From Chelativorans sp. (GTDB lineage: Bacteria > Pseudomonadota > Alphaproteobacteria > Rhizobiales > Rhizobiaceae), in NCBI RefSeq assembly GCF_031180965.1, contig NZ_JAPSLH010000016.1, forward strand, positions 1-64,000: 64,000 nt of DNA, written 5' to 3'. Both the position numbers and the translations under genes were made by a program. Under the pieces are notes generated by a model. The model ran no database searches and was not told where the DNA came from. It saw only the letters and a program-made list of their open reading frames with translations. Numbering within the stretch: position 1 is the stretch's first letter; each line of letters starts with the position of its first letter. Shown here piece by piece: positions 56,037-64,000 of the stretch.

Positions 56037-56144
56037 GCCTGTCTGCCGGGCAGCTTGGCAAGGCGGCGGGGATGCGGCATGGTTCAGGGTGACAGGCGCG
56101 TCCATGCAACGCGTCGCGCCGGTGTTGGAGCGGGAGGGGCTTTG

Positions 56145-57086
56145 ATGCTTTCGCGGGTTTTCACGGTGGCCACGCTGGTGGCGGGCTTGGCGGCGGGCCT
56201 ATGTTGCCCGGCTTGGGCGCAAGACCTTGAGGGCAGTGCCGACCACCCGCTCATCCCCCGCTATGAGGGCTCGGAAATCGTCGGCTACGAAGCGGAAGCC
56301 TTCACCGATTACGAGTTCCGCACCGGCAAGGAGGCGAGCACCGGTACCACGATTCTCGAGGGCAAGCTGGCGCGGATCACCTATCGCGGGCCGGCCGATC
56401 GCTCCGTGCTGGAGGTTTTCCGCAACTATGAGAATGCGCTTGCGGAAGCCGGGTTCGAGACGCTGTTTTCCTGCGCGAAGGCCGAGTGCGGAGACGTGCC
56501 GCGCACCATCGAAAGCGGGCCGCGCTACATGCTCCTCTGGGGGGAGGGCGATCACCGCTATCTGGCAGCCAAGCTCGCCCGCCCCGAAGGCGACGTCTAT
56601 GCCGCCGTCTATGTGACGAGGAACGGCAGCGGCGGTCCTGCGAAGGGCCGGGCGATGGTGCAGCTCGACGTGGTGGAAGTCGCGGCCATGGAACAGAAGA
56701 TGGTCGTGGTGGAGGCGGATGCCATGCGCGACGACCTCGCCCGTGGCGGGCGTGTTGCGCTGCACGGCATCCAGTTCGATTTCGACAAGGACACGCTGCG
56801 CCCCGATTCCGCGCCGCAGATCCTCGAAATCGCCAAGCTGCTTCAGGAGAACCCCACACTGTCGGTCCTGCTGGTCGGGCACACGGACATGCAGGGCGGT
56901 CTCGACTACAATATGGACCTTTCCCGTCGCCGCGCCGCGCGCGTGGTCCAGACGTTGGTCCAGGAGCACGGCATCGCCGAAGCGCGCCTGCAGGCGCTCG
57001 GCGTCGGACCGGCAGCACCGCTCGCCAGCAATGATAATGACGAGGGCCGCGCGCTCAACCGCCGGGTCGAGGTCGTCAAGAAGTAG
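56145..57086 (+). CDS. OmpA-family outer membrane protein
   Basis: A 313-residue secreted protein with signal peptide (VATLVAGLAAGLCCPAWA). Residues about 30-190 are a domain of the DUF4892 kind (EGSEIVGYEAEAFTDYEF, FETLFSCAKAECG). The C-terminal OmpA domain binds peptidoglycan (GIQFDFDKDTLRPDSAPQIL, VGHTDMQGGLDYNMDLSRRRA). ATG 56145 follows GGGAGG; the longer frame to 56055 lacks a signal. It probably anchors the outer membrane to the wall. Confidence 0.88.
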   Translation: MLSRVFTVATLVAGLAAGLCCPAWAQDLEGSADHPLIPRYEGSEIVGYEAEAFTDYEFRTGKEASTGTTILEGKLARITYRGPADRSVLEVFRNYENALAEAGFETLFSCAKAECGDVPRTIESGPRYMLLWGEGDHRYLAAKLARPEGDVYAAVYVTRNGSGGPAKGRAMVQLDVVEVAAMEQKMVVVEADAMRDDLARGGRVALHGIQFDFDKDTLRPDSAPQILEIAKLLQENPTLSVLLVGHTDMQGGLDYNMDLSRRRAARVVQTLVQEHGIAEARLQALGVGPAAPLASNDNDEGRALNRRVEVVKK

Positions 57087-57172
57087 GCCGGCCCGCGCGC
57101 CGGCGCAATCACGGGGCAATCTTTTGTAAGCTGCCGCGCGGTTTGCCGGCTGCCGACTAACCTTTCCTTTGC

Positions 57173-57197
57173 GGAACATTCCTCCTGCTGATGCGTT
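57173..57197 (+). promoter_or_regulatory. EcfG/RpoE2-type general stress promoter of the terminal cluster
   Basis: GGAAC (57173-57177), 16 bp, CGTT (57194-57197), a perfect consensus. It predicts a start near 57204, about 160 bp before the methyltransferase. Confidence 0.75.
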
Positions 57198-57334
57198 TCC
57201 CGCGCACTTCTTCGGCAGGAGGTTGGCCGGGTTTTTCGTGTGAGAGCCGAAGTGGACCGGCGAAGCAGACAGCGGCGCCGGAGCCATTGCGGGCGCCCTT
57301 AACCGCGCCCGATCCGCTCGAGCAAGGAGGCGAG

Positions 57335-57367
57335 ATGTTCAGGAACGAGGAAAGCGGGACCCGATGA
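57335..57367 (+). CDS. 10-codon leader ORF overlapping the methyltransferase start
   Basis: The peptide MFRNEESGTR has the strong AAGGAGG five bases before its ATG. Its TGA (57365-57367) overlaps the methyltransferase ATG in ATGA. The methyltransferase has no good site of its own, so translational coupling is likely. Whether the peptide matters is unknown. Confidence 0.4.
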   Translation: MFRNEESGTR

Positions 57368-58113
57368 ACACGAATTTCCAGAATGATGTGGCCCGGCGCA
57401 TCGCCGAGCTTGGTCCCTGGTTCCAGAACATGACGATCGGCGGCATCCAGACTGCGCCTGAGCATTTCCTGGGCGACTATCCCAACTGCAAATGGCGCAA
57501 CTTCTCCCACGTCATCCCTGACGACCTGGAAGGGCGCTCGGTGCTCGATATCGGCTGCAATGCCGGCTTCTACACGATCGAGATGAAGCGGCGGAACGCC
57601 GGCCGCGTGCTCGGGATCGACAGCGATCCGCATTACCTGCGCCAGGCCGAATTCGCCGCCGAGCAGGCAGGCGTGGATATCGAGTTCCGGCAGATGTCGG
57701 TCTACGAACTCGGCCGGCTCGGCGAGAAATTCGATCTCGTCATCTTCATGGGCGTGCTCTACCATTTGCGTTATCCGCTGCTGGCGCTCGACCTCATTTA
57801 CGAGCATGTGGCGAAGGACCAGATGCTCTTCCAATGCCTGCAGCGCGGCTCGAACAAGCTGGCCGAACTCGATCCTGACTATCCCTTCGCCGAGTGGGAT
57901 GTGTTCGACAGGCCGGAATTCCCGAAACTCCACTTCATCGAACACCGCTATACGGGCGATCCGACCAACTGGTTCTTCCCCAACCGCGCCGCGGTGGAGG
58001 CGATGCTGCGCAACAGCGGCTTCGTCATAGAGGAGCACCCGGAGCGCGAGGTGTATCTCTGCCGCAAGGGCGAGCGTGGCTTTGCCGTCGACCCGCCGCC
58101 GCTGATCGGCTGA
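57364..58113 (+). CDS. SAM-dependent methyltransferase (TIGR04290/CmoB-like)
   Basis: A 249-residue methyltransferase with SAM motif I SVLDIGCNAGFYTIEMK and VIFMGVLYHLRYPLLALD. The N-terminal ELGPWFQNMTIGGIQTAPEH and the central FPKLHFIEHRYTGDPTNWFFP recall tRNA cmo5U-methyltransferase relatives in TIGR04290, a family seen in gene clusters with sugar enzymes. The target is unknown. It opens the terminal cluster, downstream of an EcfG promoter and a translationally coupled leader ORF. Confidence 0.82.
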   Translation: MNTNFQNDVARRIAELGPWFQNMTIGGIQTAPEHFLGDYPNCKWRNFSHVIPDDLEGRSVLDIGCNAGFYTIEMKRRNAGRVLGIDSDPHYLRQAEFAAEQAGVDIEFRQMSVYELGRLGEKFDLVIFMGVLYHLRYPLLALDLIYEHVAKDQMLFQCLQRGSNKLAELDPDYPFAEWDVFDRPEFPKLHFIEHRYTGDPTNWFFPNRAAVEAMLRNSGFVIEEHPEREVYLCRKGERGFAVDPPPLIG

Positions 58114-58201
58114 TTTTCGGCAGCAACAGAACAAATCCTTGCCAGGCGTGTTGGGGCGCCGTTGCCGGGACGGGGGTTCCGGCCTTCCCGGCGATCTGTG
58201 G

Positions 58202-59137
58202 ATGCAAATCGAGATATTGAACGAAGCGGAATCCCTTGAGGAGGAGTGGTGGGCCCTATGGCGCCGCGACCCCTGCGCCACGCCATTCCAGAGCCCCGCC
58301 TGGCTTCTGCCCTGGCGGCGCCACTTCAATGACGGCGAGAGCGTCGTCCTGGCGCTGCGGCAGGACGGGCAGCTCGTCGGCCTCATACCCCTGATGCGGC
58401 TTGACGGCCGGCTGCTCCTCTGGGGCGCTGGCACTTCGGATTGGCTCGGCGGCCTGTTCGATCCGGATATTGAGCCGGACGCGATCGCATCCGCCCTTTT
58501 GCAGATCGAGGAGCCTGTGGATCTGTTCCAGCTGCCGGAAAACTCGCCGTTGCTGCGCTCGCCCGCCCCGGAGGGCTGGGACGACCGGCGCGGGCTGTCC
58601 GAGAGCTGCGCGATCCTTTCCCTGCCGGCCCAGCTCAGCCCGAATATGCGGCAGAACCTGCGCTACTATTCCCGACGCGCCGCCCGCAGCGGAGTGAGCG
58701 AGCCGGCGGAGCTCGGATCCGACTATGTGAAATGCCTCGCCGACCTGCATACGCGGCGCTGGCAGAACCGGCAGGAGCCGGGCGTGTTCGCTGACCCGCG
58801 CCTTCTGGCGTGGCAGCAGGAGGCCGCCGTGCTGCTCGAGCAGGCCGGTTTGCTTCGCCTCTATTCCCTGCGCAGGGCCGGGCATATCGTGGCTGCAATA
58901 TGCGTGCTCTGGGGCAAGGAGCGCGCCTTCTACTATATCGGCGGCTTCGACCCAGAGCATGCCAATCTTGGCCTCGGCACGGTGCTCGTCGGCCACGCGA
59001 TCGCAGAAGCCGAGCACGGGAACCTGACGAATTTCGATTTCCTGCGCGGGCGGGAAGAATACAAATATCGCTGGGGCGCCGCGGACAGCCCGACCCACGC
59101 GCGTTACCTGGCCCCAGGCGCGCAGAGAGCGGCGTGA
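58202..59137 (+). CDS. FemAB/CelD-like GNAT acyltransferase
   Basis: A 311-residue protein of the GNAT_acetyltr_6/FemAB-like group: FQSPAWLLPWRRHF near the N-terminus, then LRYYSRRAARSG, DLHTRRWQNR, and the C-terminal FDFLRGREEYKYRWGA. Such proteins transfer acyl or aminoacyl groups in polysaccharide or peptidoglycan assembly. ATG 58202 is chosen; a TTG at 58139 is also possible. Its TGA overlaps the GTG of the next ORF. Confidence 0.8.
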   Translation: MQIEILNEAESLEEEWWALWRRDPCATPFQSPAWLLPWRRHFNDGESVVLALRQDGQLVGLIPLMRLDGRLLLWGAGTSDWLGGLFDPDIEPDAIASALLQIEEPVDLFQLPENSPLLRSPAPEGWDDRRGLSESCAILSLPAQLSPNMRQNLRYYSRRAARSGVSEPAELGSDYVKCLADLHTRRWQNRQEPGVFADPRLLAWQQEAAVLLEQAGLLRLYSLRRAGHIVAAICVLWGKERAFYYIGGFDPEHANLGLGTVLVGHAIAEAEHGNLTNFDFLRGREEYKYRWGAADSPTHARYLAPGAQRAA

Positions 59138-59274
59138 GAAGGGAGCTCGGCATCCGCTGGACCATCGGCGATGTATCGCAGCGCGGCTTCGAGGCCCTTC
59201 GCCTCTCCATCTGGGGCCCCCGCCTGGCCTATCAGCCGCATCTAGGCCATGCGGTGCCCATCACGCCCGGCTGA
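59134..59274 (+). pseudogene. short 46-codon ORF, probable 5' remnant
   Basis: Starts with GTG overlapping the preceding TGA (GTGA), as a coupled gene would. The product RRELGIRWTIGDVSQRGFEA continues to LSIWGPRLAYQPHLGHAVPITPG, then stops. The following 120 bases, in other frames, contain a plausible protein tail (YRRVALKVSEAA before TGA 59397). This looks like a gene with an internal deletion. Identity is unknown. Confidence 0.4.
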
Positions 59275-59461
59275 ATTCGCGGCGTCTCCCTTGGCCTCTC
59301 TTACGACCGGCCGGCGAGGGACTGCATTGCCGAGCACTGAAACTGCGCCGTGCCGAATTCTACCGCCGCGTCGCCCTGAAAGTGTCCGAGGCAGCCTGAA
59401 GTCCGCGGCGGTGTAGCCCCGGTCCCCGCGGGTATCTGGCCAGGCGAGCACCTGCGAAGCG

Positions 59462-59486
59462 GGAACCAAATCGCGCCATGCCTGTT
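59462..59486 (+). promoter_or_regulatory. EcfG/RpoE2-type promoter of inositol-3-phosphate synthase
   Basis: GGAAC (59462-59466), 16 bp, TGTT (59483-59486); equals GGAAC-N18-TT. It is about 85 bp upstream of the start. The CG of CGTT is TG here, so slightly less ideal than the other two. Confidence 0.6.
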
Positions 59487-59570
59487 TCCCTCCGGTTGGA
59501 GGGAGTTCGGCTGCGATCTTGCCCGCGGAGCCGCATGGGCGCTTCCTCCTGGAGACATGGAGACGAGACT

Positions 59571-60674
59571 ATGCATGGTGCTCAAGTGCGCGTGGGTATT
59601 GTCGGCGTCGGCAACTGCGCGTCCTCCTTCGTGCAAGGGCTGGCCTATTACCGCGGCTTGCGCTCCAACAATCCCATTCCCGGGATCATGAATGCCGATA
59701 TCGGCGGTTATCTCATCGACGACGTCGTCATCAGCTCCGCCTTCGACGTGAATGCCTCCAAGGTCGGGCGCGACGTGGCGGAGGCGGTCTTCGCTCGTCC
59801 CAACAACACGATCAAATTCGCCGAGGTGGAGCGCACGGGCGTCACCGTCTCGCGCGGCCCGACGCTTGACGGCATCGGCAAGTATCTGCGCGAGGAGGTG
59901 GAGGAATCCGACGAGGCGGAAGTCGATGTCGCAGAGGTGCTGAGCCAGACCAGGACGGATGTGCTCGTCTCCTATCTTCCGGTCGGCTCCGAGCAGGCCG
60001 CCGTCTTCTATGCCGAGGAGGCGCTGAAGGCCGGCTGCGCCTTCGTCAACTGCATGCCCGTCTTCATCGCTTCGCGGCCGGAATGGCGCAAAAGGTTCGA
60101 GGAGCGCGGCCTGCCGATCATCGGCGACGACATCAAGAGCCAGTTCGGTGCCACCATCGTGCACCGGGTGCTCACAAACCTCTTCCGCGAGCGCGGCGTG
60201 CAGCTCGACCGCACCTATCAGCTCAATTTCGGCGGCAATACCGATTTCCAGAACATGCTGGAGCGCGAGCGGCTGGAATCAAAGAAGATTTCCAAGACCC
60301 AGGCTGTCACCAGCCAGCTCGGGGTTCCCATGGAGCCGGAAAACATCCATGTGGGCCCGAGCGATCACGTGCCGTGGCTGACCGACCGGAAGTGGGCCTA
60401 TATCCGCATGGAAGGAACCACCTTCGGCGGCGTCCCGATCAATTGCGAGCTGAAGCTGGAAGTCTGGGACTCGCCCAACAGCGCCGGCATCGTCATCGAC
60501 GCGGTGCGCTGCGCCAAGCTCGCCATGGACCGCGGCGAGAGCGGCGCCCTTATCGGCCCGTCCAGCTATTTCATGAAGTCGCCGCCGCAGCAATTCACCG
60601 ACGCGGAAGCCCGGTTGCGCACGCTTCAGTTCATTTCCGGCGAGGACGAACTTCCCTCCGGCCTCAAGCAGTGA
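59571..60674 (+). CDS. inositol-3-phosphate synthase
   Basis: Converts glucose 6-phosphate to 1L-myo-inositol 1-phosphate with NAD+. The 367 residues match the bacterial/archaeal type. The N-terminal dinucleotide site [51 protein letters not shown] and [12 protein letters not shown] are family signatures. ATG 59571 follows GGAG. It starts the coupled set ips-phosphatase-glycosyltransferase and has its own EcfG promoter. Myo-inositol made here would be a building block for the cluster product. Confidence 0.94.
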
Positions 60675-61291
60675 AAACCGTGTTCCACCTCCTGCGCCAT
60701 GCCTCGCATGGCCACGTCGGCAGGGTGTTGACGGGGCGCCTTCCGGGCGCGCCGCTGACAGGTGAAGGCCGCGAGGAAGCGCTCGCCCTCGGCAGGCACA
60801 TGGCAGGTGAGAAGCTCGACGCCATCTATGCAAGCCCCCGGCTGCGCGCGCAGCAGACAGCCGAGATCATCGCCCGCGAGACGCGCGTTGAGAGCAGGAC
60901 CGCGGAGGAGCTGGACGAGATCGATTTCGGCGGCTGGTCCGGCAGGAGCTTCGACGATCTCGCCGCCGATCCGGCCTGGCGGATCTGGAACGAGGAGCGC
61001 GGCAGCGCGGCCACGCCCGCAGGCGACACGATGGAACGCGCCGCCGCCCGCATCACCGGCTTCATGGAGCGGCTTTGCCGCGAGCGCGCGGGCCAGCATC
61101 TTGCGCTGGTCAGCCACTGCGATGTCATCAAGGCGGCCCTCTGCCGCTATCTCGACCTCCCCTTCCAGAGCGTGCACGGGTTCGAGATCGCTCCCGCATC
61201 GATCACGACGCTGGCCATCGGCAAGGGCGGCGCAACGCTGATCGCGCAGAACGTCCGTCCCGCGCAGCTTCCCGTGGGAGCACTGGCATGA
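60671..61291 (+). CDS. histidine phosphatase family protein (phosphoglycerate-mutase fold)
   Basis: A 206-residue phosphatase with the RHG-type motif [34 protein letters not shown] and the second catalytic His in ALVSHCD. It begins with GTG overlapping the ips stop (GTGA). It may remove the phosphate of inositol phosphate or of a sugar phosphate; its position suggests inositol 1-phosphate. Confidence 0.88.
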
Positions 61292-62385
61292 AGCTGGTGA
61301 TCTTCGGCCTCAGCATCAGCTCCTCCTGGGGCAACGGCCATGCCACGCTCTGGCGCGGCCTCGTGCGCGCGCTCGGCCGGCGCGGCTGGACGGTGGTCTT
61401 CTTCGAGCGCGACCTTCCCTACTATGCCGGCGCGCGCGACCTATACGAGATCGAGAATGGTGAGCTGATTCTCTACAGCGATTGGGAGGATGCGCTGCCC
61501 GCCGCCCGCCGTCACCTGGCCGATGCGGATGTCGCGCTCGTCTCTTCGTATTGCCCCGATGGGGTCGCCGCCTCCGATCTCGTCCTTGCCGCGCCGCGCC
61601 CTGTCCGCCTCTTTTACGATCTCGATACGCCGGTGACGCTGTCCGTCCTCGAGCGCGGCGAGAGCACCAGCTATATCGGGCCGCGCGGCCTCACCGACTT
61701 CGACCTGGTGCTTAGCTATACGGGCGGCGAGGCGCTTGACGAATTGAAATCGCGGCTCGGAGCCCGCATCGTCGCCCCGCTCTACGGCCATGTCGATCCG
61801 TGCGTGCACCGGCCGACGACGCCGGTTGAACACTATGCGGCCGACCTTTCCTATATCGGCACCTATGCCGAGGATCGGCAGGCAGGCGTTTCCGCCTTCC
61901 TGCTGGAGCCGGCGCACAGGCGTCCCAATCTGCGCTTCGTCATTGCCGGGGCGCAGTATCCGCAGGATTTTCCATGGGCGGAGAATGTCTTCTTCGTCCG
62001 CCATCTGCCGCCTGAGGAACATCCGGCCTTCTATTCCTCCTCACGGCTAACGCTCAATGTCACGCGCCGGGCCATGGCCAAGATGGGCTGGTGCCCGTCC
62101 GGCCGGCTGTTCGAGGCGGCGGCCTGCGCCGTTCCCATTATTTCCGACTGGTGGCAGGGGCTCGACGCCTTCTTCGAACCGGGACGCGAGATCCTGGTCG
62201 CGCTCGAATCGGAAGATGTCACCGCCGCTCTCGACCTTGGCGACGCGGAACTCCGTCGCATCGCGGAAGCAGCGCGCGAGCGGGTGCTCTCCAGCCACAC
62301 GTCCGAACATCGCGCCATCGAGTTCGAAGCTATTCTCGACGATCTGAAATCCGCCGCCGCCGGCGAGCCCGCGCTGCAGGCATGA
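61288..62385 (+). CDS. CgeB-like glycosyltransferase
   Basis: A 365-residue GT-B fold protein resembling CgeB/Glyco_trans_1_2 glycosyltransferases: [39 protein letters not shown], and the C-terminal nucleotide-sugar region GWCPSGRLFEAAACAVPIISDWWQGLDAFFEPG in outline. It overlaps the phosphatase by 4 bp. Acceptor and donor are unknown; it may glycosylate an inositol or lipid. Confidence 0.82.
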   Translation: MKLVIFGLSISSSWGNGHATLWRGLVRALGRRGWTVVFFERDLPYYAGARDLYEIENGELILYSDWEDALPAARRHLADADVALVSSYCPDGVAASDLVLAAPRPVRLFYDLDTPVTLSVLERGESTSYIGPRGLTDFDLVLSYTGGEALDELKSRLGARIVAPLYGHVDPCVHRPTTPVEHYAADLSYIGTYAEDRQAGVSAFLLEPAHRRPNLRFVIAGAQYPQDFPWAENVFFVRHLPPEEHPAFYSSSRLTLNVTRRAMAKMGWCPSGRLFEAAACAVPIISDWWQGLDAFFEPGREILVALESEDVTAALDLGDAELRRIAEAARERVLSSHTSEHRAIEFEAILDDLKSAAAGEPALQA

Positions 62386-62398
62386 AGGAGGTGCTCCG

Positions 62399-63244
62399 AT
62401 GTGGGGAATCATTCCGGCCGCAGGCTGCGGAAGCCGAATCCAGCCGCTGGCCTTCTCGAAGGAGCTTCTGCCCGTCGGCAGCCGTCTGACGGACGGGGCC
62501 GAGCGGCCCTGCGCCGTCAGCGAATATCTGTGCGAGCGCATGATCGCGGGCGGAGCGGACAAGCTCTGCTTCGTCATCGCGCCCGGCAAGTCCGACATCC
62601 TTGAATATTACGGCGGCAGCTATGGCAGCGCCTCCATCGCCTATGTCGTGCAGCCGGAGCCGAGCGGGCTGTGCGATGCGATCTTCCGCGTGGCGCCGCT
62701 GATCGCACCGGACGAGCATCTGCTGGTCGGCCTGCCCGACACGATCTGGATGCCGGCCGACGGGTACCAGGCACTGCCCGACGGGGTGCTCTCCTTCCTG
62801 CTCTTCCCGGTGGAAAACCCGTCCGCATTCGACGCGGTCGAGACGGATGAGGACGGAAATGTCCGGGAAATCCAGGTGAAGCAGCAGAACGCCTCGACCA
62901 ACTGGATCTGGGGCGGGTTCAAGATGTCCGGCCGCATCCTGCACGAGCTTCTGGCGCTCTGGCTCGAGCGCGGCCGCACGGACGAATATATGGGCACGTT
63001 GGTCAATGCCTATCTGGCCAAGGGTGGCAGGGCGGAGGGCATCCGCGCCGGCCGCGCCTATGTGGATGTCGGCACGCTCGAAGGCTACCGCGCCGCCAAT
63101 GACCTGCTGCGGCACAGCGCCGTCGAGCAAGGCGCGCCGGTGCCCGGCGCCCATGTCACCGCCGGTGCGCCGGCGGGGCGCCAGTTGCTTGCGCATCGTC
63201 GCGAGCTTGTCATGTCTTTCAAGCAAGTTGAACGAGGGGTCTGA
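62399..63244 (+). CDS. sugar-1-phosphate nucleotidyltransferase-like protein
   Basis: A 281-residue NTP-transferase fold protein with the signature IIPAAGCGSRIQPLAFSKELLPVG, GLCDAIFRVAPLI and DEDGNVREIQVKQ. It resembles RmlA/GalU-type enzymes, making an NDP-sugar. Together with ips it could even activate inositol phosphate, but this is speculation. ATG 62399 has GAAGGAGG upstream; 13 bp after the glycosyltransferase. Confidence 0.85.
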   Translation: MWGIIPAAGCGSRIQPLAFSKELLPVGSRLTDGAERPCAVSEYLCERMIAGGADKLCFVIAPGKSDILEYYGGSYGSASIAYVVQPEPSGLCDAIFRVAPLIAPDEHLLVGLPDTIWMPADGYQALPDGVLSFLLFPVENPSAFDAVETDEDGNVREIQVKQQNASTNWIWGGFKMSGRILHELLALWLERGRTDEYMGTLVNAYLAKGGRAEGIRAGRAYVDVGTLEGYRAANDLLRHSAVEQGAPVPGAHVTAGAPAGRQLLAHRRELVMSFKQVERGV

Positions 63245-63247
63245 CTG

Positions 63248-64000
63248 ATGATCGAAGCCGCGATGATCTGGAACGAGCCGAACAACAAGTCCCATTGGGA
63301 CCCGGAGATCGATCCCGATTGGAGCCTCTTCGCCCAAATGGCCATCGGCGCGGCCGACGCGATTCACAGCGTCAACCCCAATGTCGTTCGCGTGCTGGGC
63401 GGCATGTCGCCCATCGATCCGCTCTTCGTGCAGAACCTCCAGGGCAAGGGCGTGCTGGATCACGTCGACGCGATTGCCGTCCACGGCTTTCCGCTCGATT
63501 GGAACCTGTGGCAGATCCACGAATGGCCGCAGAAGCTCGCCGAAATCCAGGCCGTCACGCATCTGCCCGTCTGGGTGAGCGAAGTGGGTATCTCCACCTT
63601 CGGCGCCGAGGAGGTTCAGGTCTGGGGCCTGCAGCGGACTTTCGAGCTGCTCAAGGGCCGGGCGCCGCGCGTCCAATGGTACAGTCTTTTCGACCTGCCG
63701 CAGGCCTGGGGCGCCACCACGCGCCACAAGGAGGCGGAAGGCTCCTCCTATTACCGGCACTTCTATATGGGGCTGATCCGCGAGGACGGAACGCCGAAGC
63801 CGTCCTTGGAGAAGTTCGGCGAATGCACGCCGGAATTCGGCCTTTGCCAATGGTTCCACTTCGAGGATCCGCGTCTCGACGAGGCTGTCACCTGGATGAA
63901 GCGGCTGGGCGTGAAATATCTGCGCACCGGCCTCTCCTGGGCCGACAGCTTCCGCCCGAACGCGCTCGACTGGTTCGACCGGCAGATGGAGGCGCTGGCC
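63248..64000 (+). CDS. GH-A clan glycoside hydrolase (beta-xylosidase-like), truncated by the window
   Basis: At least 251 residues; the gene continues past the window. The acid/base motif is MIWNEPNNKSHWD and the nucleophile region WVSEVGISTFG, typical of clan A (family 39-like) TIM barrels. After a first barrel region, GLCQWFHFEDPRLDEAVTWM starts a second TIM-barrel-like segment. It starts 3 bp after the nucleotidyltransferase. The substrate is unknown; it may trim or remodel the cluster product. Confidence 0.82.
   Translation, partial: MIEAAMIWNEPNNKSHWDPEIDPDWSLFAQMAIGAADAIHSVNPNVVRVLGGMSPIDPLFVQNLQGKGVLDHVDAIAVHGFPLDWNLWQIHEWPQKLAEIQAVTHLPVWVSEVGISTFGAEEVQVWGLQRTFELLKGRAPRVQWYSLFDLPQAWGATTRHKEAEGSSYYRHFYMGLIREDGTPKPSLEKFGECTPEFGLCQWFHFEDPRLDEAVTWMKRLGVKYLRTGLSWADSFRPNALDWFDRQMEALA

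Follow-up and report, generated by a model that had tools for sequence, protein, structure and literature searches.

The 64,000 nucleotides analysed here (the window: Chelativorans sp., contig NZ_JAPSLH010000016.1, positions 1 to 64,000) end in a gene cluster, from position 57087 onwards, that encodes an S-adenosylmethionine (SAM) methyltransferase (MT), a FemAB/CelD-like GNAT acyltransferase (FemAB), an inositol-3-phosphate synthase (IPS), a histidine phosphatase (HP), a CgeB-like glycosyltransferase (CgeB4), a sugar nucleotidyltransferase (NT) and a glycoside hydrolase-like barrel protein (GH). This cluster is about half of a larger two-locus system, the other half of which is a second locus of the same genome, C11. 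The gene content of the system is conserved in modules, EcfG-like sites are enriched at some operon heads, and the two halves of GH are swapped in order relative to a homologue, GH', found in other loci. Our preferred reading, to which we assign a probability of roughly 0.55, is that the two loci encode one pathway, under general-stress control, for the synthesis of an oligosaccharide or oligoglycoside with decorations.

Two loci of one genome form a single system

All seven genes named in a preliminary description of the region were found on the + strand, and profile scans confirmed its family assignments for all of them but GH. The interval of 57087 to 64000 that it gave for the cluster is cut short: GH itself ends past 64000, and behind it the contig carries genes for a PIG-L deacetylase and a GT4 glycosyltransferase (GT4b), followed by a urease and other genes on the opposite strand. 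Elsewhere in the genome the region has a single match (40 of 208 candidates scored), to a CgeB gene at C11, and CgeB4 is a paralogue of the third CgeB there, 67% identical over a 271-base stretch. The C11 locus holds two short-chain dehydrogenase/reductase genes (SDR0 and SDR), a GT4 gene (GT4a), three CgeB genes and a UDP-glucuronate-decarboxylase-like, that is UDP-xylose-synthase-like, gene (UXS). The UXS protein is closest to UDP-glucuronate decarboxylase 1 (2b69, 1.6e-114) and the SDR to CDP-tyvelose 2-epimerase. About 4 kb upstream of this set lie genes for a zinc dehydrogenase (ADH) and a Gfo/Idh protein (Gfo), 70% and 62% identical to the copies beside the cluster in another genome (L039); for the L039 copies the best NCBIfam models are scyllo-inosose 3-dehydrogenase and inositol 2-dehydrogenase, both scoring far below cut-off.

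We regard the two loci as one system because their halves adjoin in relatives, forming a single stretch on Sinorhizobium pSymB, in Roseomonas and in Azospirillum. The S. meliloti pSymB version comprises GH, HP, IPS, Gfo, ADH, two SDRs, GT4, three glycosyltransferases, UXS and MT, with the permuted GH about 13 kb from MT and thus beyond a 10-kb flank; its surroundings include a pyruvyl transferase gene and genes that we label stress-type. The Roseomonas and Azospirillum plasmids hold compact versions, which in Roseomonas amount to 14 contiguous cluster genes; no UXS, ADH or Gfo gene is listed for the Azospirillum stretch in its gene table (PLSDB tables can be incomplete). One compact version, on a Roseomonas mucosa plasmid (L136), lies between insertion sequence elements, with two other genes intervening on one flank, an arrangement that suggests it was transferred as a unit. 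A fused order, IPS-HP-CgeB4-NT-MT-GH-PIGL-GT4-FemAB, is found in Alsobacter, Mesorhizobium and Inquilinus (L118, L119, L122, L126, L128).

Gene content is conserved in modules

Co-occurrence was counted within a flank of about 10 kb around MT in the best 80 of at least 584 named relatives of this gene. The full-length loci, 68 of the 80 with 12 left out, are the base of the following counts; the 80-locus table is weighted to Rhizobiales and related loci are non-independent, so that Fisher p-values derived from it are not probabilities. IPS and HP occur together in 19 loci, neither occurs alone, and both are missing from 49. GH accompanies IPS in 19 loci and stands without it in one, and IPS is never found without GH. 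GH (20 loci) and GH' (35 loci) are mutually exclusive, with 13 loci holding neither. GT4b occurs 12 times with FemAB and once alone, and FemAB ten times with PIG-L and twice without. The exceptions over all 80 loci are HP without IPS in two, GH without IPS in four, and a single locus, L120, not full length, in which GH and GH' stand together. The system thus has a core (the SDRs, GT4a, CgeB1-3, UXS and MT), an inositol module (IPS, HP and GH) and an N-acyl module (GT4b, PIG-L and FemAB). Inositol synthesis is a module and not part of the core, since most full-length loci lack both IPS and HP.

A separate survey of 288 other alphaproteobacteria (E limits of 1e-60 for MT, 1e-40 for GH and 1e-60 for IPS-like genes) detected MT in 13 genomes, GH in five and an IPS-like gene in 24. 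In all five genomes with GH, MT lies within about 0.1 kb of it, and four have IPS within 2 kb, with none in G207. TIGR04290, the family of MT, was scanned for in 61 genomes, the Chelativorans genome itself and 60 relatives, and exceeded its cut-off in 18: 14 of 16 in the genus (its own included), two of 21 in the rest of the family and two of 24 in the rest of the order. MT directly closes the C11-type set in seven of these 18 (L040, L043, L046-L049, L051), and L039 and L044 combine C11-type and IPS-type genes. The best 80 relatives of MT include members of Rhizobium, Sinorhizobium, Devosia, Mesorhizobium, Bradyrhizobium and the roseobacters, together with assemblies labelled Bryobacteraceae, Acidobacteriaceae, Verrucomicrobiota and Deltaproteobacteria. 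Some MT matches carry in-frame stops, one TGA each in G093, G222 and G320 (genus g82) and a TAG in G219.

Decoration genes vary by cluster (a pyruvyl transferase, a second methyltransferase and a radical SAM protein, one representative of each scanned), and TIGR04295, 'B12_rSAM_oligo', exceeds its cut-off in the Azospirillum version; these genes would fit a glycan product. A protein of 580-600 aa adjoins IPS or UXS in several clusters (L133:2104-3852, L108:10743-12557, L124); NCBIfam gave no match for the L133 copy, and for the L108 copy neither Pfam nor NCBIfam gave one. That the genes act as one functional unit, as first proposed, agrees with a gene order or content conserved in several genera and phyla. 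The conserved neighbourhood that was expected is seen in relatives, where order or content is kept and the modules co-occur; the order differs between lineages.

The hydrolase as a circularly permuted barrel

GH (305 aa) carries the motifs WNEPNN and WVSE and has no Pfam or NCBIfam match at E 0.001; a homologue of it has none either. In an alignment of 20 rows from several phyla the columns are on average 76% identical, and E10 (in WNEPNN) and E112 (in WVSE) are invariant; in GH', E127 and E234 are conserved in 19 rows. By their motifs, the two conserved glutamates are the predicted catalytic residues of both proteins. The N-terminus of GH begins at the NEPN strand, which is normally strand 4 in such barrels. 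GH' is a distant homologue whose open frame continues, at all 40 GH' loci, into a downstream CDP-tyvelose-epimerase-like SDR of the C11 type (39 of 40 under the strict script limit, the matches in L095 overlapping by 20 residues); L056:2428-4467 is one such frame.

Residues 7-184 of GH correspond to about 194-369 of GH', and 197-294 to about 87-186 (L056 numbering), and the order of the halves is swapped in 40 of 40 comparisons. Profile alignment of GH with GH' returned two swapped matches, of 2.2e-29 over 181 columns and 7.5e-14 over 105 columns; with GH un-permuted by script there was a single match of 278 columns at 4.6e-44. PslG aligned with GH gives the same order swap at a non-significant level (best E 0.15, the first half scoring just 2 bits). 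An AlphaFold2 model of GH from Chelativorans J32 (93% identical; pLDDT 84.4, pTM 0.86) has eight barrel-type strands. A sequential Foldseek search with GH returned mixed TIM barrels, with query-length TM scores of 0.23-0.47 among the 50 matches listed; most are non-glycosidases, and a GH5 cellulase and a redesigned endo-alpha-N-acetylgalactosaminidase core are among them. Such a mixture is as expected for a permutant. For the GH' model (pLDDT 75.6, pTM 0.80) the top three fold matches are PslG (TM 0.68-0.70, best 1.5e-12), and a sequence-profile search with GH' against solved structures gave no match. In one locus, L112, GH is split across two frames.

Taken together, these results identify GH, mainly by sequence, as a GH39/PslG-like barrel in circularly permuted form, which departs from the standard strand order of that group. 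PslG, a GH39 enzyme of the Pseudomonas Psl cluster, resembles the present proteins in the fold of GH', the conserved glutamate in NEPN and the second glutamate motif; it differs from them in that the window GH is permuted and, at about 305 aa, opens with the NEPN strand, in that GH' is fused to an SDR, and in a PF01229 match that stays below the gathering score. GH, initially labelled a clan-A hydrolase, thus has no family match but carries the two glutamate motifs, and its halves are permuted.

EcfG-like sites at operon heads

The two EcfG-type sites reported earlier are present, upstream of MT and of IPS (Table 1). Sites were scored strictly as GGAAC-N16/17-YGTT; for clusters of the genus the form was loosened after inspection of the data to NGTT with a spacing of 15-18. 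An NGTT-form site (GGAAC-N16/17-NGTT) stands upstream of MT in all eight window-type clusters of the genus (the stricter YGTT in four of eight) and in neither of two other clusters (L039, L052), where MT is not an operon head. Of the 11 clusters with IPS all but L044 were examined, and each of these 10 has an NGTT-form site 65-112 nt upstream of IPS, with YGTT in seven of the 10. Among the named loci, YGTT sites lie upstream of IPS in 10 of 21, SDR0 in 22 of 56 and ADH in 12 of 43, where about 0.02 per gene would be expected; because ADH and SDR0 frequently diverge, their counts partly reflect one region read on both strands (antisense 15 and 14). The site is rare in the same loci at the C11 gene CgeB1 (3/63), UXS (1/59), Gfo (1/16) and MetE2 (1/3), and none was found at HP, CgeB4, NT, GH, GT4 or FemAB (12-25 genes each) or at PIG-L (0/10). 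In the Chelativorans genome it precedes MT, IPS, SDR0 and ADH.

Genes for extracytoplasmic function (ECF) sigma factors occur in 13 of the 80 fetched stretches, at most 5.6 kb away and in three stretches within 260 bp of a cluster gene; we take these to be EcfG, the models of two scanned members saying only sigma factor. Sites of the GGAAC-N16/17-cGTT type, the mark of the EcfG general stress regulon, are thus found at operon heads, and GGAAC-type sites of the same kind appear in portions of PMC3892343 and PMC6180224. The head motifs and the neighbouring sigma factor genes make general-stress control of the cluster probable.

Organisation of the window locus

The genes and sites of the locus are collected in Table 1. 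Spacing, initially called mostly tight, is so from IPS onward, where IPS and HP, and HP and CgeB4, each overlap by 4 bp, and gaps of 13 bp (CgeB4-NT) and 3 bp (NT-GH) follow. It is wide between MT and FemAB (88 bp) and between FemAB and IPS (433 bp), as measured with ATG starts at 58202 (FemAB) and 59571 (IPS). In the 433-bp gap lie a promoter-like site and what is left of a deleted gene, c32: an N-terminal piece (~59143-59262) and, in a different frame, a C-terminal piece (~59253-59396), the middle (about residues 43-222 of 270) being lost. The gene is intact (~270 aa) in two loci of relatives, L036 and L037; the intact homologue has no Pfam or NCBIfam match, and a DND motif may suggest a GT-A glycosyltransferase. 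Upstream of MT, window positions 56055-57086 encode an OmpA-like protein with a DUF4892 domain, which occupies the same place in one of 17 loci of relatives (L038).

Table 1. Features of the locus in the window and directly beyond its edge.
Feature	Position	Strand	Details
EcfG-like site	57173..57197	+	GGAAC-N16-CGTT, 191 nt upstream of MT start
MT, SAM methyltransferase TIGR04290	57364..58113	+	394.4 bits against a cut-off of 300
FemAB/CelD-like GNAT acyltransferase	58202..59137	+	PF13480, 1.1e-29; co-occurs with GT4 and PIG-L
c32 remnant (deleted gene)	59143..59396	+	tblastn 1e-14 and 1.8e-9
EcfG-like site	59462..59486	+	GGAAC-N16-TGTT, 109 nt upstream of IPS
IPS, inositol-3-phosphate synthase	59571..60674	+	PF01658, 1.6e-36; nearest solved structure 1gr0, 1.2e-142
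HP, histidine phosphatase	60671..61291	+	PF00300, 3.9e-43; GTG start
CgeB4, CgeB-like glycosyltransferase	61288..62385	+	PF13524, 7.1e-40
NT, RmlA/GalU-like sugar nucleotidyltransferase	62399..63244	+	PF00483, 2.5e-11
GH, putative circularly permuted GH39/PslG-like (beta/alpha)8 barrel	63248..64000 in window	+	ends at contig position 64165
PIG-L deacetylase	contig ~64162-65028		PF02585, 1.7e-22; outside window
GT4 glycosyltransferase (GT4b)	contig ~65019-66155		outside window

A proposed pathway

From these families we infer substrates and an order of steps. IPS would supply myo-inositol together with HP, a candidate inositol-phosphate phosphatase; in loci with IPS, inositol could serve as a primer or as a building block. 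Oxidation or epimerisation of inositol or a sugar may fall to the linked IolG-like and IolM-like dehydrogenases. The UXS-like enzyme, the two SDRs and NT would provide nucleoside diphosphate sugars, GT4a and four CgeB-type glycosyltransferases would assemble the chain, and MT, probably an O-methylation enzyme, would methylate it. GT4b may add an N-acetylamino sugar that PIG-L would deacetylate, leaving a free amine for re-acylation by the FemAB-like GNAT, while the permuted GH39/PslG-like enzyme could trim or transglycosylate the chain. The product would be an O-methylated, often inositol-containing, sometimes N-acylated oligosaccharide. The methylated, acylated inositol glycoside made under stress that had been proposed at the outset is retained as regards glycoside or oligosaccharide chemistry and probable general-stress control; inositol is not universal. 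A fuller account is possible, and we offer it tentatively: that this is an undescribed, widespread general-stress pathway, whose methylated, N-acylated inositol oligosaccharide would protect the cytoplasm, and in which a permuted GH39-like transglycosidase or editor replaced the epimerase-fused, normal-order domain when the inositol module joined.

Several observations weigh against a stress-controlled inositol oligosaccharide pathway. An IPS-like gene was not found in the seven of 18 TIGR04290 genomes in which the C11-type set ends in MT, so that inositol synthesis is not essential to the core, and L044 has IPS without HP. In the 288-genome survey, 19 of the 24 genomes with an IPS-like gene are without MT at the threshold used and five have it; IPS is therefore usually found apart from the system. 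The strict YGTT site precedes MT in two of 79 named loci, and the motif is common in the Chelativorans genome as a whole (126 sites against 99 in a backwards control), so that alone it means little and the argument rests on its position and conservation. Keyword searches in the main text of the stress-regulon papers PMC8877191, PMC3616915, PMC6180224, PMC3892343 and PMC4814048 gave no mention of a glycosyltransferase, their supplementary tables lying outside that text. FemAB has no significant relative among solved structures. Finally, attachment of the GlcNAc to inositol is a guess, because PIG-L and GT4 score far below the mycothiol and bacillithiol cut-offs.

Alternative explanations

The genes might instead make repeat units or side chains of an exopolysaccharide, lipopolysaccharide or capsule, with an exporter encoded elsewhere and GH acting as editor, the role that PslG has in the Psl cluster. 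We consider this unlikely, although the fold of GH' is most like PslG, a pyruvyl transferase gene adjoins some versions and glycosyltransferases are numerous. Neither the 14 Roseomonas genes nor the other clusters checked, in all four records from three genera, include an annotated flippase, polymerase, ABC exporter or priming transferase (PLSDB tables can be incomplete, and the rest of these genomes was not searched), and this makes a cytoplasmic protectant likelier than a classical exopolysaccharide.

It is improbable that GT4b, PIG-L and the acyltransferase make a GlcN-inositol conjugate, as in mycothiol or bacillithiol, with the other glycosyltransferases as accessories. The likeness to those pathways lies in an INO1-type IPS, a GT4, a PIG-L deacetylase and a putative amine acylation: IPS is nearest to the mycothiol INO1 model and to 1gr0, HP is closest to the MSMEG_4193 model (below cut-off), PIG-L and GT4 are weakly similar to Bsh and Msh proteins, and the acyltransferase stands where MshC would act. 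Every tested pathway model scored below its cut-off, however, with 529.3 of 638 bits for IPS against TIGR03450, 44.9 of 462.5 for MshA, 19.7 of 224.35 for MshB, 49 of 273.7 for BshA, 44 of 195.25 for BshB2 and 39.8 of 182.5 for BshB1. The best MshC score in the genome (95% complete) was 232.9 of 485.1, a model that is matched in 14 of 14 control genomes and exceeds its cut-off in one. GT4 is also nearer to other solved glycosyltransferases than to MshA, and GT4a and the four CgeB glycosyltransferases would be left unexplained. Membership in the mycothiol and bacillithiol pathways was rejected on these scores. The preliminary description had called the cluster not mycothiol-like, which is right for formal membership; PIG-L and GT4 beyond the window edge, with IPS and the acyltransferase, nevertheless give it a mycothiol-like logic.

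That the genes are unrelated neighbours with no common pathway, as the long MT-FemAB and FemAB-IPS gaps, the lineage-dependent order and the genomes with part of the set might suggest, is very improbable and was rejected, being largely refuted by the strong co-occurrence and adjacency of modules in many genera and several phyla and by the motifs common to operon heads.

Relation to known systems and significance

Genes of this neighbourhood had already drawn attention, since NCBIfam curators have hypothetical models for two of them: TIGR04290, over cut-off here, and TIGR04295 are both 'hypoth_equivalog' models without a function. No TIGR04295 gene was noted in the Chelativorans genome, in which no search aimed at it was made. 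A UDP-xylose-synthase-like enzyme is likewise present in Sinorhizobium, where UDP-xylose synthase and epimerase genes of S. meliloti were reportedly described by Gu et al. in 2011. Searches of the open-licence literature found no description for TIGR04290, for CgeB with inositol synthase, with EcfG or with Rhizobium, or for Rta_06860/Ramlibacter, and among the matches listed there was no IPS in the search on IPS and stress and no description in that on a permuted GH. For the SMb204xx tags they gave nothing beyond the citation of the S. meliloti UDP-xylose work in the portion of PMC6024577 that came up.

The permuted barrel has a relative in normal order, found in loci from which the permuted form is missing, and offers a natural test case for the rearrangement of a fold with its active site kept. 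The system is patchy yet widespread; one of its hosts is the model symbiont Sinorhizobium meliloti, which carries it on pSymB among stress-type genes. If it does make a general-stress glycan, that product would be a chemical effector for a regulon known mainly by its regulators.

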